Below are positions 5,931-9,286 of a DNA stretch of 23,859 bases, piece after piece; position 1 is the stretch's first letter, and every line of letters starts with the position of its first letter. The DNA lies in the IMG/VR virus record IMGVR_UViG_3300007538_000188, positions 1 through 23,859 of that record; one strand, 5' to 3'. This DNA comes from a virus. The position numbers and the translations under genes were made by a program. Under the pieces are notes generated by a model that ran no database searches, was not told the origin of the DNA, and worked only from the letters and a program-made list of their open reading frames with translations.

Positions 5931-6244
5931 GGCGTTGTCTCCGGCCAGCAGTCCCAGCCGCGCTGGCGCGCGAACTCCCGCTGGTCCTCGGCGGTGTCTG
6001 CCTCTAGAGCGCACACCTCCCGCCTCGCCTCGTCGCGCTCACGCTGCATCAAGTCTCGATCTTCGCGCAGGCAACCATTGATGTCGGCTGCTTCGTCTCC
6101 GATCAGTCTTATCCCACCCCTGAGAAACGAGATCTGCTCGCGAGCCTCGTTCAGTTCGCGGAGTGTTTGCGCATGCTCGATATGCAGCGCGTCGTACTTG
6201 GTCAGCAGCCGCATGAACGCATCGCTTAGTTCGCCGTAGGTCAT
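5927..6244 (-). CDS. Coiled-coil hypothetical protein
   Basis: A 105-aa protein starting MTYGELSDAFMRLLTKYDAL. AAAGGAG lies just upstream of the ATG at 6242-6244. Almost the whole length is predicted helical and highly charged (HIEHAQTLRELNEAREQISF and REDRDLMQRERDEARREVCA), consistent with a long coiled coil broken by a Gly-rich turn (LRGGIRLIGDE). It ends with GWDCWPETTP. It overlaps both flanking genes by 4 nt. No family is recognised. Confidence 0.7.
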   Translation of the reverse strand: MTYGELSDAFMRLLTKYDALHIEHAQTLRELNEAREQISFLRGGIRLIGDEAADINGCLREDRDLMQRERDEARREVCALEADTAEDQREFARQRGWDCWPETTP

Positions 6245-6582
6245 CGCGCTCCTTTCAGGCGCTTGGCGCCCAGACTGGTCAGTGTGAACTCGACTGCGTG
6301 AACAGCCCAGCAGTTCGTCAGGCGCGCAACGTATCGCTTGCCAGACTTGCGACCGGCCTCGGGAACGGATCGGCATTCCTTCCACTCCCCGAACGTCACG
6401 CGCCACTCCTTCCAGACGGCACCGGATCGGACTGTGCGCTTGAGGCTGGATCGGACCATGGGCTTGGTGATCATGTCGCCATCGTCGTGCCACCACTCGC
6501 GCGTGACCGTGATCCAACCGGCGTCGGCCAGCAGGGTCACGGTGTCGGAATCCCACTCCGTTAGGTCGTCGAATAGGTCCAT
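6241..6582 (-). CDS. Hypothetical protein, first gene of the overlapping leftward chain
   Basis: A 113-aa protein starting MDLFDDLTEWDSDTVTLLAD. It is rich in Trp in the middle (REWWHDDGD, GAVWKEWRVTFGEWKECR) and ends in a basic stretch (VEFTLTSLGAKRLKGAR) that resembles the recognition end of winged-helix proteins, but I cannot assign a family. The leader is the conserved AGAAAGTAGGAGAC preceded by a GC stem-loop, shared with the gene starting at 9174. Its stop overlaps the next start in an ATGA. Confidence 0.7.
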   Translation of the reverse strand: MDLFDDLTEWDSDTVTLLADAGWITVTREWWHDDGDMITKPMVRSSLKRTVRSGAVWKEWRVTFGEWKECRSVPEAGRKSGKRYVARLTNCWAVHAVEFTLTSLGAKRLKGAR

Positions 6583-6583
6583 C

Positions 6584-6642
6584 GTCTCCTACTTTCTGCC
6601 GGTGTGACCGGCTACAGGTTAGTGCATCCTGCACGATGCAGG
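6584..6642 (-). promoter_or_regulatory. Modular structured 5' leader (copy 1)
   Basis: In the transcribed direction this reads: stem CCTGC/GCAGG with loop ATCGT (6628-6642), then ATGCACTAACCT (6616-6627), then stem GCCGG/CCGGC with loop TCACA (6598-6612), then AGAAAGTAGGAGAC (6584-6597), then the ATG of the gene at 6582. The same modules, with altered stem bases, recur at 7700-7760, 8258-8313 and in part at 8600-8641 and 9180-9236. Confidence 0.65.
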
Positions 6643-6645
6643 CCA

Positions 6646-6669
6646 GCCAGCCGTCCGGAGACGGCTGGC
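6646..6669 (-). other. 3' hairpin with UCCG tetraloop after DUF932 gene
   Basis: A perfect 10-bp stem (GCCAGCCGTC paired with GACGGCTGGC) closes the loop TCCG on the transcribed strand, a C(UNCG)G-type stable tetraloop. It lies 21 nt past the DUF932 stop. There is no T tract, so it is either an atypical terminator or protects the mRNA 3' end. Confidence 0.65.
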
Positions 6670-6690
6670 GTGGCTTACCCCGTGGGTGGT

Positions 6691-7695
6691 TCAGGCGACC
6701 AGCGCAGCCGCCGCCTCGTATGCGGCCTTGTTCAGATCGCCAGCAGTGCCGAACAGCACGCTGTCGATCCGGCGCGTGGCGTCCTGCTTCTCGTTGCGCA
6801 CCGTGCGCTCATGGTTTGCGTACTGGGTCACGGCGTTGAGCGCCGCCCAGACCGTTCCGGACGTGCTCACGCCGGTCTGGCGCTTGTCGTCGCGGAAGTT
6901 CGCCAGCCACTGGGACACCTCGCCCTGATACTTCTGAGCGCGACGGCTCTTTGGGTTCTTGATGTCCTCGTCGGTGAGGCGACCGTTCGCACGCTGCCAG
7001 ACGCTGGTGAAGAACGCCTGAATCTGCTCCTCGGTGATGCCCTGCTCGGCCATGCGGATGGCGTTGGCGCCATACGCCTTGATCGAGGCGGTGGGACCGG
7101 CCAGCCACTCGCGCACCTTCGCGAGGCGCTGCTCGGCGCTCGCGGTGTGCTTGATCTTGATGCAGTCGCCGTTCAGTTCGCGCATGGCGATCGCGTGCGT
7201 GTTCGCGCACACGACGCGGGTCGCGATCGACCCGATGGTGAGGCTCATGCTCAGGTCGTGGGCGCCACCGATGAACAGGTATGGCTTCACCTTGTCGTCG
7301 GCGGCGGCGTAGATCGTGCCCATGTCCACGAGGAACCACACCTTGCGGCCACCCCTGATGGATCCGGCGGTCTCCACTGCGCGATCGCTGAAGTTGCTGA
7401 TCTCATAGGCAAGATCCGCGATCTCCGCATTCTGGATCGGCGTGTAGCCGTCCTTGCACGCAGCGAACGCCTCGCCGGTGTCGCTGCGGACCACGAGCCG
7501 GTTGTCGCCGCCGTCCACGGTGCTGCCATCGTTCAGGGTCGCGATGACCGGCGCCACCTCCACCTTCCACTCCAGCCGCGCCGTCTTGAGCGCCGTGATG
7601 GCGTCGGTTCGGGTGGGGAGCACGGTGCCGAGCCCGTGCCAAGCGGGCGTGCCAGCCAGCATGATGTGATCCGTTGCCTCGATGTGATGTGCCAT
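6691..7695 (-). CDS. DUF932 phage/plasmid-like protein
   Basis: A 334-aa protein starting MAHHIEATDHIMLAGTPAWH. The early motif PAWHGLGTVL, followed by ARLEWKVEVAPV, RLVVRSDTGEAFAACKDGY and later MSLTIGSIATRVVCANTHAI, is characteristic of the DUF932 (TIGR03299, phage/plasmid-like protein) family. Members are common in phages and plasmids; their function is not established. I chose ATG 7693-7695 with GGAAA about 8 nt upstream, not the longer frame that runs back through the promoter palindrome. It is the first gene after the promoter at 7768-7812. Confidence 0.85.
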   Translation of the reverse strand: MAHHIEATDHIMLAGTPAWHGLGTVLPTRTDAITALKTARLEWKVEVAPVIATLNDGSTVDGGDNRLVVRSDTGEAFAACKDGYTPIQNAEIADLAYEISNFSDRAVETAGSIRGGRKVWFLVDMGTIYAAADDKVKPYLFIGGAHDLSMSLTIGSIATRVVCANTHAIAMRELNGDCIKIKHTASAEQRLAKVREWLAGPTASIKAYGANAIRMAEQGITEEQIQAFFTSVWQRANGRLTDEDIKNPKSRRAQKYQGEVSQWLANFRDDKRQTGVSTSGTVWAALNAVTQYANHERTVRNEKQDATRRIDSVLFGTAGDLNKAAYEAAAALVA

Positions 7696-7699
7696 TGCA

Positions 7700-7760
7700 G
7701 TGTTTCCAATCTGCCCCTGCGGGGCTGGGTTGAGTGATGTCAAGACTCGACGGTGAGCCT
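7700..7760 (-). promoter_or_regulatory. Modular structured 5' leader (copy 2)
   Basis: Transcribed order: stem AGGCTC/GAGTCT (one G-T pair) with loop ACCGTC (7743-7760), then ATCACTCAACCC (7727-7738), then stem GCCCC/GGGGC with triloop GCA (7713-7725), then AGATTGGAAACAC (7700-7712) before the DUF932 start. The loop and single-stranded parts match the copy at 8258-8313 while both stems differ in sequence yet still pair. Confidence 0.7.
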
Positions 7761-7767
7761 CGATGCT

Positions 7768-7812
7768 GTACCATACACCGTGTATCGTACAGTTCAAGAT
7801 CTAACTGGACAA
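7768..7812 (-). promoter_or_regulatory. Leftward sigma70-like promoter overlapping a 23-bp palindrome
   Basis: On the leftward strand TTGTCC (7807-7812) and TACGAT (7784-7789) are separated by 17 bp. The -10 lies within a near-perfect inverted repeat at 7768-7790 (arms GTACGATACAC and GTGTATGGTAC around a central base, one mismatched pair). The same 23 bp recur at 9243-9265 with one substitution. The arrangement suggests an operator over the -10 and start site; the DUF932 gene and chain below would be its targets. Confidence 0.65.
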
Positions 7813-7825
7813 TTTCCAGCAGATT

Positions 7826-7861
7826 CTTGGGAGGCCACCCCCGGAGGGGTGGCGACCCAAG
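7826..7861 (-). other. 3' hairpin with UCCG tetraloop
   Basis: An 8-bp stem (GCCACCCC paired with GGGGTGGC, loop TCCG on the transcribed strand) is extended by CTTGGG/CCCAAG across a 2x2 internal loop. It follows the stop of the gene at 7872-8255 by 10 nt and precedes the promoter at 7768-7812. No T tract follows. Confidence 0.7.
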
Positions 7862-7871
7862 CGCCCGCCGG

Positions 7872-8255
7872 TCATGAGGGCTCCGGCTGCACGCCGAACC
7901 GGTGGTAGCAGAGGCGCTTCAGAACTTCGCGCAGGGTGCGCGTTTCCTCGTCGATCGTCTGCCTCAGGTACTTGACCTGATCATGCAGCCACAGGTCCGT
8001 TTCGCGCTCGGTTGCCTGCACGAACGCCAGTGCCGCCTTGGCGTGCGTCAGGTTCACGGCGGCGTTGCGGAACTTCGGGTACAGGTCGGGGTCAACCTCC
8101 GAACGGTCATCGGCAACGTATGCGTCGAAGGTGCTGCCCACGAACATGAGCACGGTGGACTGGCGATCGGTCCTGCTGGGGATGAACGCCAGATTCTCAA
8201 TGATGCAGATGATCTGCTCGGTGCGGGCGGTGTTGTAATTCCGAGGAAGCGACAT
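7872..8255 (-). CDS. Hypothetical helical protein
   Basis: A 127-aa protein starting MSLPRNYNTARTEQIICIIE from ATG 8253-8255, behind the leader AGATTGGAAACAC. The first half contains NLAFIPSRTDRQSTVLMFVG and a short acidic stretch; the second (HAKAALAFVQATERETDLWL, then LRQTIDEETRTLREVLKRL) is strongly helical, possibly coiled coil. No family is recognised. It lies in the promoter-9243 transcription unit with the genes at 8356, 8679 and 8773. Confidence 0.7.
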   Translation of the reverse strand: MSLPRNYNTARTEQIICIIENLAFIPSRTDRQSTVLMFVGSTFDAYVADDRSEVDPDLYPKFRNAAVNLTHAKAALAFVQATERETDLWLHDQVKYLRQTIDEETRTLREVLKRLCYHRFGVQPEPS

Positions 8256-8257
8256 GG

Positions 8258-8313
8258 GTGTTTCCAATCTGGGCCTGTGGCCCGGGGGTTTAGTGATCCT
8301 GCGACGGTGCAGG
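8258..8313 (-). promoter_or_regulatory. Modular structured 5' leader (copy 3)
   Basis: Transcribed order: stem CCTGC/GCAGG with loop ACCGTC (8298-8313), ATCACTAAACCC (8286-8297), stem GGGCC/GGCCC with triloop ACA (8271-8283), AGATTGGAAACAC (8258-8270), then the ATG at 8255. Compared with 7700-7760 the unpaired parts are nearly identical and the stems are compensated. Confidence 0.7.
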
Positions 8314-8355
8314 GGATCGGGGCGCGACTGCCGTGCGCCCGTCACCCTTGGATCG

Positions 8356-8592
8356 TCAGATCGCGACGCTGAAGAAATCAGCCAGCGCGGTGTAGTCCTT
8401 CCAAGTTCCAAGCACATCGCCGCTCTTCTCCATCTGCGCCCACATCCGCGCATCCACACAGAACCAGCCCTTGTTAAATCCCTCAAGCGTTGCAGAGATG
8501 ATCGGCGCGCCCTTGCGGGTCTTCCACCATCGCGCCCTTAGTCCCGCGTTGCGAAACGTTGCAACCTTGTAGTCGTCGCGCGTCAGTTTCAT
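8356..8592 (-). CDS. Hypothetical protein
   Basis: A 78-aa protein starting MKLTRDDYKVATFRNAGLRA. It is rich in aromatic residues (ARWWKTRKGAPII, GFNKGWFCVDARMWAQM, TWKDYTALADFF) and looks like a small alpha/beta domain. AAGGGA is well placed upstream of the ATG. It has its own leader with an ACCGTC-loop stem at 8626-8641. No family is recognised. Confidence 0.7.
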   Translation of the reverse strand: MKLTRDDYKVATFRNAGLRARWWKTRKGAPIISATLEGFNKGWFCVDARMWAQMEKSGDVLGTWKDYTALADFFSVAI

Positions 8593-8599
8593 CGGTCAG

Positions 8600-8641
8600 T
8601 CCCTTCGGGTAAGTGTGTAGTGAATCCTGCGACGGTGCAGG
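8600..8641 (-). promoter_or_regulatory. Modular structured 5' leader (copy 4, simplified)
   Basis: Transcribed order: stem CCTGC/GCAGG with loop ACCGTC (8626-8641), then ATTCACTAC, then a short CCC/GGG stem (8601-8609) that runs directly into the ribosome-binding sequence AAGGGACTG before the ATG at 8592. It shares the first stem exactly with 8298-8313, but has neither of the two conserved leader tails. Confidence 0.6.
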
Positions 8642-8646
8642 CCGTC

Positions 8647-8664
8647 CCGCCCCCGGAGGGGCGG
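8647..8664 (-). other. 3' hairpin with UCCG tetraloop
   Basis: A 7-bp stem (CCGCCCC paired with GGGGCGG) closes the loop TCCG on the transcribed strand. It lies 14 nt past the stop of the 24-residue membrane microprotein. As with the hairpins at 6646 and 7826, no T tract follows. Confidence 0.65.
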
Positions 8665-8678
8665 TGGGGCGTGAACCG

Positions 8679-8753
8679 TCAGTCGGTGCAGAGGATGGCG
8701 TAGACGCCGATTGCGAGAGAGATCAAGACGAACACGAGGGCGAGGGTGGTCAT
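8679..8753 (-). CDS. 24-residue single-span membrane microprotein
   Basis: ATG 8751-8753 opens a 24-codon frame encoding MTTLALVFVLISLAIGVYAI followed by LCTD and a TGA. AGAAAGGAA sits 7 nt upstream (8761-8769). Nearly the whole product is one hydrophobic helix, enough for a single membrane span, with a short polar end. Its stand-alone position with a good ribosome-binding site, its own 3' hairpin and its clear coding bias argue that it is a real gene. Function is unknown; small phage membrane proteins of this kind often modulate host membrane targets (inference). Confidence 0.65.
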   Translation of the reverse strand: MTTLALVFVLISLAIGVYAILCTD

Positions 8754-8772
8754 GGGTTGGTTCCTTTCTGGG

Positions 8773-9174
8773 TCAGGCGGCGGCGGTGTCGTGGCCGTAT
8801 CGCGTGATCAGGTGTGCGCAGTATCGATCCAGCGCGACAACGGCGCGGGTGACGTTTGCATTGGCATTGGCAATGGCCGCAGCGTGGCCGCTGATGTAAT
8901 TCTTGGCGCTGTAGACCTTGCGAAGGGCGATGACGCTGTCCCTGACTTCCTCAGCCAATTCACTCAGAACGCAGTATTCTGCGGCGTCGATCGCCCCGAT
9001 CTGGGAGGCGAAGTTGGCCTGCGAGATGACCTTGGTCGCCCTGCGCCTCGCAGATTCCACGCGAATCTCATTCGGGCGCTCGTTCGAGCAAAGCGCATAG
9101 GAAGTGAACAGGTTGAAGTTGTCTGCGAGGATCTTGTGGATGTTGCGCTCGATGACTGGAATGATCTGAAGCAT
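8773..9174 (-). CDS. Hypothetical helical protein, first gene of leftward unit
   Basis: A 133-aa protein starting MLQIIPVIERNIHKILADNF, from ATG 9172-9174 behind the conserved leader AGAAAGTAGGAGAC. It is Ala/Glu/Arg-rich and probably all helical (ESARRRATKVISQANFASQI, AEYCVLSELAEEVRDSVIAL), with a repetitive Ala-Asn stretch (AAAIANANANVTRAVVALD). No family is recognised. It is the first gene after the promoter at 9243-9286 and is therefore a likely early gene. Confidence 0.7.
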   Translation of the reverse strand: MLQIIPVIERNIHKILADNFNLFTSYALCSNERPNEIRVESARRRATKVISQANFASQIGAIDAAEYCVLSELAEEVRDSVIALRKVYSAKNYISGHAAAIANANANVTRAVVALDRYCAHLITRYGHDTAAA

Positions 9175-9179
9175 TGCGT

Positions 9180-9236
9180 GTCTCCTACTTTCTGCTGGCC
9201 TTGCCAGCCCTTGTTGCTGTGCCAGCCACGCGGCTG
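9180..9236 (-). promoter_or_regulatory. Structured 5' leader of the first leftward gene
   Basis: Transcribed order: stem CAGCC/GGCTG with loop GCGT (9223-9236), a spacer, stem GCTGGC/GCCAGC with triloop AAG (9194-9208), then AGAAAGTAGGAGAC (9180-9193). The last module is identical over 14 nt to the leader at 6584-6597, again directly abutting a GC stem with different bases. Confidence 0.65.
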
Positions 9237-9242
9237 ACCTGA

Positions 9243-9286
9243 GTACCATACACCATGTATCGTACAAGGCAAGTAGTTAACTTCAA
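9243..9286 (-). promoter_or_regulatory. Leftward sigma70-like promoter overlapping a 23-bp palindrome
   Basis: TTGAAG (9281-9286) and TACGAT (9259-9264) are 16 bp apart on the leftward strand. The 23-bp inverted repeat at 9243-9265 covers the -10 and probable start site and differs from the copy at 7768-7790 at one base. The remaining part of the 9175-9396 intergenic region, towards the packaging genes, holds no promoter I can call with confidence. Confidence 0.65.

Follow-up and report, generated by a model that had tools for sequence, protein, structure and literature searches.

The subject of this analysis is a leader cassette that recurs in an uncultivated phage, represented by a virus fragment of 23,859 bases in IMG/VR (record IMGVR_UViG_3300007538_000188; this whole stretch is termed the window, and coordinates are those of the window unless a locus is named). 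Rightward from 9397, the window encodes the small and the large subunits of the terminase, the portal and the major head protein, and below 9177, on the minus strand, which carries all the window features detailed here, lies a leftward cluster encoding small proteins without family matches, along with one DUF932 protein. Five leftward leaders in the window are built on one plan, in which a hairpin (hairpin A) is followed by a C/A-rich linker, usually by a second hairpin (hairpin C), and then by a Shine-Dalgarno tail and the start codon. Hairpins with the loop A[CT]CGT(C), a stem of at least 5 pairs and CACT downstream occur 4 times in the window, whereas 300 dinucleotide shuffles averaged 0.007, with no more than 1 in any of them.

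The initial annotation had described four such leaders, with hairpin A at 8641-8626, 8313-8298, 7760-7743 and 6642-6628, and these positions were borne out, along with the loops, ACCGTC in the first three and ATCGT in the last. The common plan also proved real, but it extends to a fifth leader, ahead of the gene starting at 9174, that had been noted just for its tail. In this leader, the first in the direction of transcription, hairpin A (9221..9238) pairs GTCAGCC with GGCTGGC around the loop GCGT, and is followed by hairpin C (9194..9208, GCTGGC-AAG-GCCAGC) and by the tail AGAAAGTAGGAGAC, with the Shine-Dalgarno GGAG (9180..9193); the gene behind it (8773..9174) encodes 133 amino acids without a Pfam or PHROG match, and in the relatives G001 and G004 the linker of this leader is CTCACTCAACC. 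The linkers of four window copies are CACTACACA, CACTAAACC, CACTCAACC, and CACTAACC. The leader of the gene at 8356..8592 (78 amino acids, no family assigned) possesses hairpin A at 8626..8641 (CCTGC-ACCGTC-GCAGG), a hairpin C of merely 3 pairs and no tail, contrary to the earlier claim that both parts are present in all four leaders, a claim that holds for the remaining three. One of these has the same hairpin A at 8298..8313, hairpin C at 8271..8283 (GGGCC-ACA-GGCCC) and the tail AGATTGGAAACAC at 8258..8270, upstream of a gene for 127 amino acids, no family assigned (7872..8255). Another belongs to the DUF932 gene (6691..7695, 334 amino acids, PF06067, phrog_1221), whose hairpin A is longer than annotated, with 9 pairs at 7740..7763 (TCGAGGCTC-ACCGTC-GAGTCTTGA), including a G-U pair, followed by hairpin C at 7713..7725 (GCCCC-GCA-GGGGC) and by an exact repeat of the tail AGATTGGAAACAC at 7700..7712. 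The third has hairpin A at 6628..6642 (CCTGC-ATCGT-GCAGG), hairpin C at 6598..6612 (GCCGG-TCACA-CCGGC) and the tail AGAAAGTAGGAGAC at 6584..6597, repeating that at 9180..9193 exactly, so that both tail identities stand as first noted; the gene behind it (6241..6582, 113 amino acids, no family assigned) has homologues, 32-37% identical, that also follow this cassette in G001, G002, and G004.

The cassette is also present at orthologous as well as at different leftward genes of the close relatives G001 (38 kb), G002 (25 kb), G004, and G005, whose terminases are 83-87% identical to that of the window. Genes that follow it in different phages can be unrelated, such as those for MKTASIIL... in G001 and MALNWNLSK... 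in G004, and it thus behaves as a portable module. In the family of the window the stems of hairpin A include CCTGC/GCAGG, CCAGC/GCTGG, CCCGC/GCGGG, GGCTC/GAGTC, and CAGCC/GGCTG, and in hairpin C most pairs change orientation. Over 13 rows, some selected via a stem search, which favors pairing, and others via synteny or the reading of leaders, all padded with N to equal length because MAFFT misaligned the 7760 copy, pairing holds in 97.7% of cells versus 62.4% in shuffles, double changes number 38 versus 11.5 in shuffles, and each slid register is far worse. The compensatory double substitutions in both stems give good support to selection for RNA structure, the existence of which we regard as nearly certain, and covariation in homologues is thus present, as the initial annotation had anticipated.

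Similar observations can be made for more distant phages. A terminase profile matched at least 590 viral contigs, and 80 loci among these were analyzed, all of them IMG/VR fragments of unknown completeness, with open reading frames at the distant loci called by simple rules. The phages bearing the cassette form a large, uncultivated family, mostly from lakes and other aquatic environments. In the distant relatives, with terminases 52-71% identical, hairpin A is kept with unrelated stems and with a loop of the class (A)N-C/U-G-U(C), or (A)NYGU(C), or else GCGU. The loop constancy proposed initially therefore holds at the level of this class, of which ACCGUC is one version, the tolerated variants including GCGU, GUGU, and AAUGCC. 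A tandem-hairpin scan blind to the loop (a GC hairpin, a second hairpin no more than 12 nt on, then Shine-Dalgarno and start) returned 51 cases on the early strand versus 7 on the late strand, with A-CCG-U (24) and A-CUG-U (10) as loops of the second hairpin. A covariance model, which the initial annotation had suggested for its four leaders, was built here from 19 diverse leaders and, searched against 88 sources (1.03 Mb), returned 54 matches at E <= 1, the training leaders among them; 52 lie on the early strand, opposite to the terminase, the other two being among the weakest. Thus, the claim of selected RNA structure is upheld by covariation of both stems, by loop-blind recovery of one loop class and by near confinement to one strand. 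The element is repeated at many early genes within one genome, and an exact 22-base pattern alone is found in 21 stretches, mostly in two or three copies each; a reversed-sequence control with a simple pattern produced almost no matches. The count from alignment A7 is descriptive only, because most of its rows had been picked by requiring a perfect stem and a given loop, and the matches of the family-wide pattern in L066 and L067 were rejected as chance, lying inside unrelated sequence. No Rfam 15 family was matched at gathering or relaxed thresholds, the best match (21.8 bits versus a cut-off of 64) being located elsewhere.

The placement of hairpin A, which the initial annotation had missed, follows one of two patterns, and the first of these is found behind promoters. 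Sigma70-like promoters are recognized at 9245..9272 (-35 TTGCCT, 16-nt spacer, -10 TATGGT) and at 7770..7797 (-35 TTGAAC, 16-nt spacer, -10 TATGGT), the former a weak match alone, with TTGACT/TTGACA as the -35 boxes of the orthologous sites in G001, G002, and G004. The -10 boxes end at 9245 and 7770, and hairpin A starts at 9238 and 7763, respectively, which is the predicted +1 in both cases. Across all loci, 69 such promoters were scanned without regard to the loop, requiring a perfect stem of at least 6 pairs, and a stem starts 6-8 nt past the -10 box (predicted +1 to +3) in 16 cases versus about 0.8 in shuffles, these 16 including close relatives and promoters counted twice with another spacer, with an estimated 8 to 10 independent; the prevailing loops were GCGT, AACGTC, A-ACG-T, and A-CCG-T. 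This register is seen across unrelated stems (GTCGGC, GTCGG, AGGCGC, GTGGAC, TTCCAGTC), and in these cases the stem lies within 0-3 nt of the predicted transcript 5' end, as in 5'-terminal stabilizing stem-loops. The promoter-driven leaders are free of the long hairpin described below.

Two further observations concern the promoters. An operator-like dyad, TGTACGATACAYGGTGTATGGTAC, probably the site of a phage repressor, lies between the -35 and -10 boxes of both cluster promoters (7768-7791 and 9243-9266, minus strand), and it recurs in G001, G002, and G004 at the orthologous promoters; a helix-turn-helix protein of 99 amino acids (PF01381), encoded leftward at L059:5990, in the leftward cluster of G001, is a candidate binder. 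Near-consensus promoters (TTGACA-17-TACAAT) are found at L059:8560-8520 and L061:19905-19860 (minus strand), and the leaders behind them keep only the linker, hairpin C and the tail, because the predicted start falls in the CACTCAACC linker.

The second pattern, also missed initially, is found between genes, where hairpin A comes directly after a strong hairpin downstream of the previous stop codon, and where pairing reaches past hairpin A to that codon. The RNA reaching from the preceding stop codon to the hairpin A loop forms one long imperfect hairpin in all 13 cases from the window's family (z -1.9 to -6.1), of 14-24 pairs, starting inside a UGA codon in 10 of the 13, with GACGGU pairing with ACCGUC. 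One example is the hairpin at 8631..8680, behind a small upstream open reading frame, in which GACGGT from inside the UGA pairs with ACCGTC under a UCCG cap (-32.3 kcal/mol, z -3.8). Another, behind the DUF932 stop at 6633..6683, pairs ACGGgGUAa with cUGCAUCGU, also under a UCCG cap (-34.1 kcal/mol, z -4.3). The weakest of the 13 (z -1.95) extends from the stop of the gene at 8592-8356 to ACCGTC (8303..8357). In divergent copies the letters differ but still pair, as ACGACGC/GCGCCGU in G002 and as UACG-UGC/GCA-CGUG in G001 and G004. As the lower 3' arm of the long hairpin is, in this family, the 5' arm and loop of hairpin A itself, the two folds compete, hairpin A costing 1.7-9.4 kcal/mol relative to the full fold, and part of the loop conservation has another possible cause, the pairing of ACCGUC with GACGGU at the upstream stop. 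No U-tract is found behind the intercistronic hairpins, which are therefore not terminators of the usual kind, and an intrinsic attenuator is unlikely for the same reason. The hairpin upstream of the 8313 leader (8357-8303, minus strand) and its equivalents in L059 and L065 have a constant loop of their own, AC[AG]GCAGTC, on covarying stems (GGGCGC/GCGCCC, GGATCCGC/GCGGATCC, GGAGCCGC/GCGGCTCC).

We propose that the cassette serves as RNA punctuation and 5'-end protection of phage early operons, a reading that we favor while holding it evenly balanced between right and wrong. Each message of the leftward cluster would begin with a short stable hairpin with a loop (A)NYGU(C) or GCGU, and the C/A-rich linker would keep the ribosome-binding site open ahead of a strong Shine-Dalgarno and the start codon, a function that the linker and the Shine-Dalgarno fit. 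It is known that 5'-terminal stems stabilize mRNA because RppH and RNase E require single-stranded 5' ends, and that the Bacillus enzyme requires at least 2 unpaired 5' bases (PMC3997798). Behind a promoter, the hairpin, formed from the first transcribed bases with 0-2 unpaired 5' bases, would hinder RppH and 5'-end-dependent decay by RNase E. Between genes, the stable hairpin at or just past the stop codon would mark the 3' end of the upstream message, a role that its position fits, with hairpin A within a few bases; the RNA would be cut between or within the hairpins, by an RNase III-like activity for the long hairpins or in the 3-5-base spacer, which would leave every cistron with one hairpin at its 5' end and one at its 3' end. 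Because the 5' arm and loop of hairpin A are, in the window's family, tied up in the lower portion of that long hairpin, hairpin A would become able to fold there once the RNA is cut or a ribosome occupies the stop codon. We infer cleavage, protection and the effect on translation from this arrangement, and of the shared translation, stability or processing signal suggested initially, stability or processing appears to fit best. Several points weigh against the proposal. The promoters and starts are predictions, those of the window being poor consensus matches; end protection alone leaves the constancy of the loop unexplained; the alternative long pairing, though clear in the window's family, loses strength in distant relatives (mean z -1.04 across 62 rows, nested duplicates included); and no host emerged from DNA matches, terminase relatives or the profile search of bacterial genomes.

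The main rival, unlikely in our estimation, is a protein-binding RNA operator, in which a phage or host protein would recognize the (A)NYGU(C) loop whatever its stem, much as the initial annotation had surmised for ACCGUC, controlling translation, localization or stability of early mRNA in the manner of N-boxB or a coat protein and its operator. It is favored by a loop that stays constant while the stems vary, even in promoter-driven leaders that lack a competing upstream partner, and by the occurrence of hairpin A at many early genes per genome. However, no candidate binder has been identified, the genes behind the cassettes being small and without Pfam matches except for DUF932, several loop variants are tolerated, and hairpin A in the window lies some 40 nt or more ahead of the start codon and so cannot directly block initiation. 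Next in probability, and improbable as well, is an early-mRNA tag, a hairpin with an NYGU loop that would form from the very first base of the transcript, or be set free between genes, for recognition by a factor of the phage or the host; that factor would protect phage messages or favor their translation, and upstream translation would decide whether the intercistronic copies are buried or exposed. We doubt more strongly a translation-coupled switch, in which a ribosome terminating upstream would cover GACGGU and free ACCGUC, so that upstream translation would set the downstream fold, and hence expression or transcription. The start of the long hairpin inside UGA and the energetic cost of hairpin A agree with such a switch, as do native upstream/downstream pairs that, in the distant relatives, are better than swapped ones (-14.1 versus -11.5 kcal/mol), but the lack of a U-tract leaves the switch no intrinsic terminator to act on, leaders behind promoters possess hairpin A yet not the switch, and in many distant relatives the pairing is weak. 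A factor-free antitermination or anti-pausing RNA, like HK022 put, whose leader hairpins would bind RNA polymerase and allow read-through of the early operon, is very unlikely: hairpins do occur in early leaders immediately behind promoters, and putL lies just behind PL with two stem-loops (PMC9378689), but the put fold of approximately 70 nt, with two long stem-loops near each early promoter, is not recognized here, many distant leaders having a single short hairpin, the element recurs after each gene, whereas put acts over kilobases, and the intercistronic hairpins are not ordinary terminators. Least probable is a DNA-level element, palindromes acting as operators near +1 or as recombination joints for gene exchange, for even though the operator-like dyads overlap the window promoters and the cassette stands before genes that lack homology from one phage to another, the half-sites vary freely while pairing stays, a G-U pair is present in the 7760 copy, and the intercistronic copies are without a promoter. 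A T7-like promoter (CACTA core) was dropped, because the stems are variable and some leaders have genuine promoters upstream of them, an integron attC was considered and dropped, and no resemblance to short riboswitches survived inspection.

Elements with partly similar anatomy are known. The early mRNA of T7 contains intercistronic RNase III sites, and, as in T7, long imperfect hairpins lie between the genes here, in all 13 intercistronic cassettes of the window's family, where they would yield separate protected messages; the differences are that a second, loop-conserved hairpin comes next and that cleavage is presumed. The boxB of lambda nut, with a GNRA-like purine loop and boxA before it, is likewise a short hairpin with a constant loop on an exchangeable stem, but the loop here is (A)NYGU(C) and is repeated at many genes. 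The 5'-terminal stem-loops of ompA and papA also have a stem at or a few bases from the 5' end and a single-stranded ribosome site downstream; these, however, are single host-gene cases with no shared loop, while the present element repeats family-wide, keeps its loop constant and also comes in a form located between cistrons. In the literature on described phage elements of this kind, only SAS/ESAS and put were found as neighbors. The nearest repeated leader modules are SAS/ESAS of the Cluster K mycobacteriophages (PMC3203893) and of the Cluster EF Microbacterium phages (PMC7302621), which likewise recur at the ribosome sites of numerous non-structural genes, the genes behind them often belonging to different families, and have an inverted repeat upstream. 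However, SAS is a fixed 13-bp sequence and the ESAS repeats keep their sequence, whereas here the sequence of the stems changes, the promoter precedes the hairpin, and many copies are promoterless; the 13-bp GGGATAGGAGCCC (or GGGAAAGGACCCC) is absent from the ribosome sites, the tails being AGAAATTGGAGACA-like. In Adephagia, the ESAS repeat region contains putative SigA-like promoter hexamers (PMC11373665), whereas no promoter hexamers are found inside the inverted repeat here, hairpin A starting past the -10 box. HK022 put, a two-hairpin early leader RNA acting on RNA polymerase (PMC9378689), resembles the cassette in possessing stem-loops in phage early leaders just past the promoter, but differs in fold, in size and in being present in one copy per early promoter.

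As to the phage itself, isolated and annotated phages contain no near DNA match to the window, with relatives of the terminase and DUF932 proteins in isolated phages less than 60% identical, and the terminase profile found nothing in bacterial genomes as a search for prophages or hosts. A tRNA scan found none. The mark of an N4-type hairpin promoter would be a giant virion RNA polymerase encoded in the genome, which is incomplete here; the window has no open reading frame above 598 amino acids. A hydrophobic frame of 24 codons (MTTLALVFVLISLAIGVYAILCTD, 8753-8679, minus strand) has its own Shine-Dalgarno and encodes a small membrane-like protein kept in G002, G004, and G005.

Overall, the cassette would represent a conserved, portable RNA leader module across a large uncultivated phage family, the terminase of which is found in at least 590 contigs. 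The rule of a loop (A)NYGU(C) with a stem starting at +1 offers testable predictions of where transcripts start and mRNAs end in phages that have not been grown, and one is led to ask what might read a loop that stays constant while its stems change freely. If the cassette does stabilize or insulate messages, it could be taken as it stands for use as a 5' leader in expression work.

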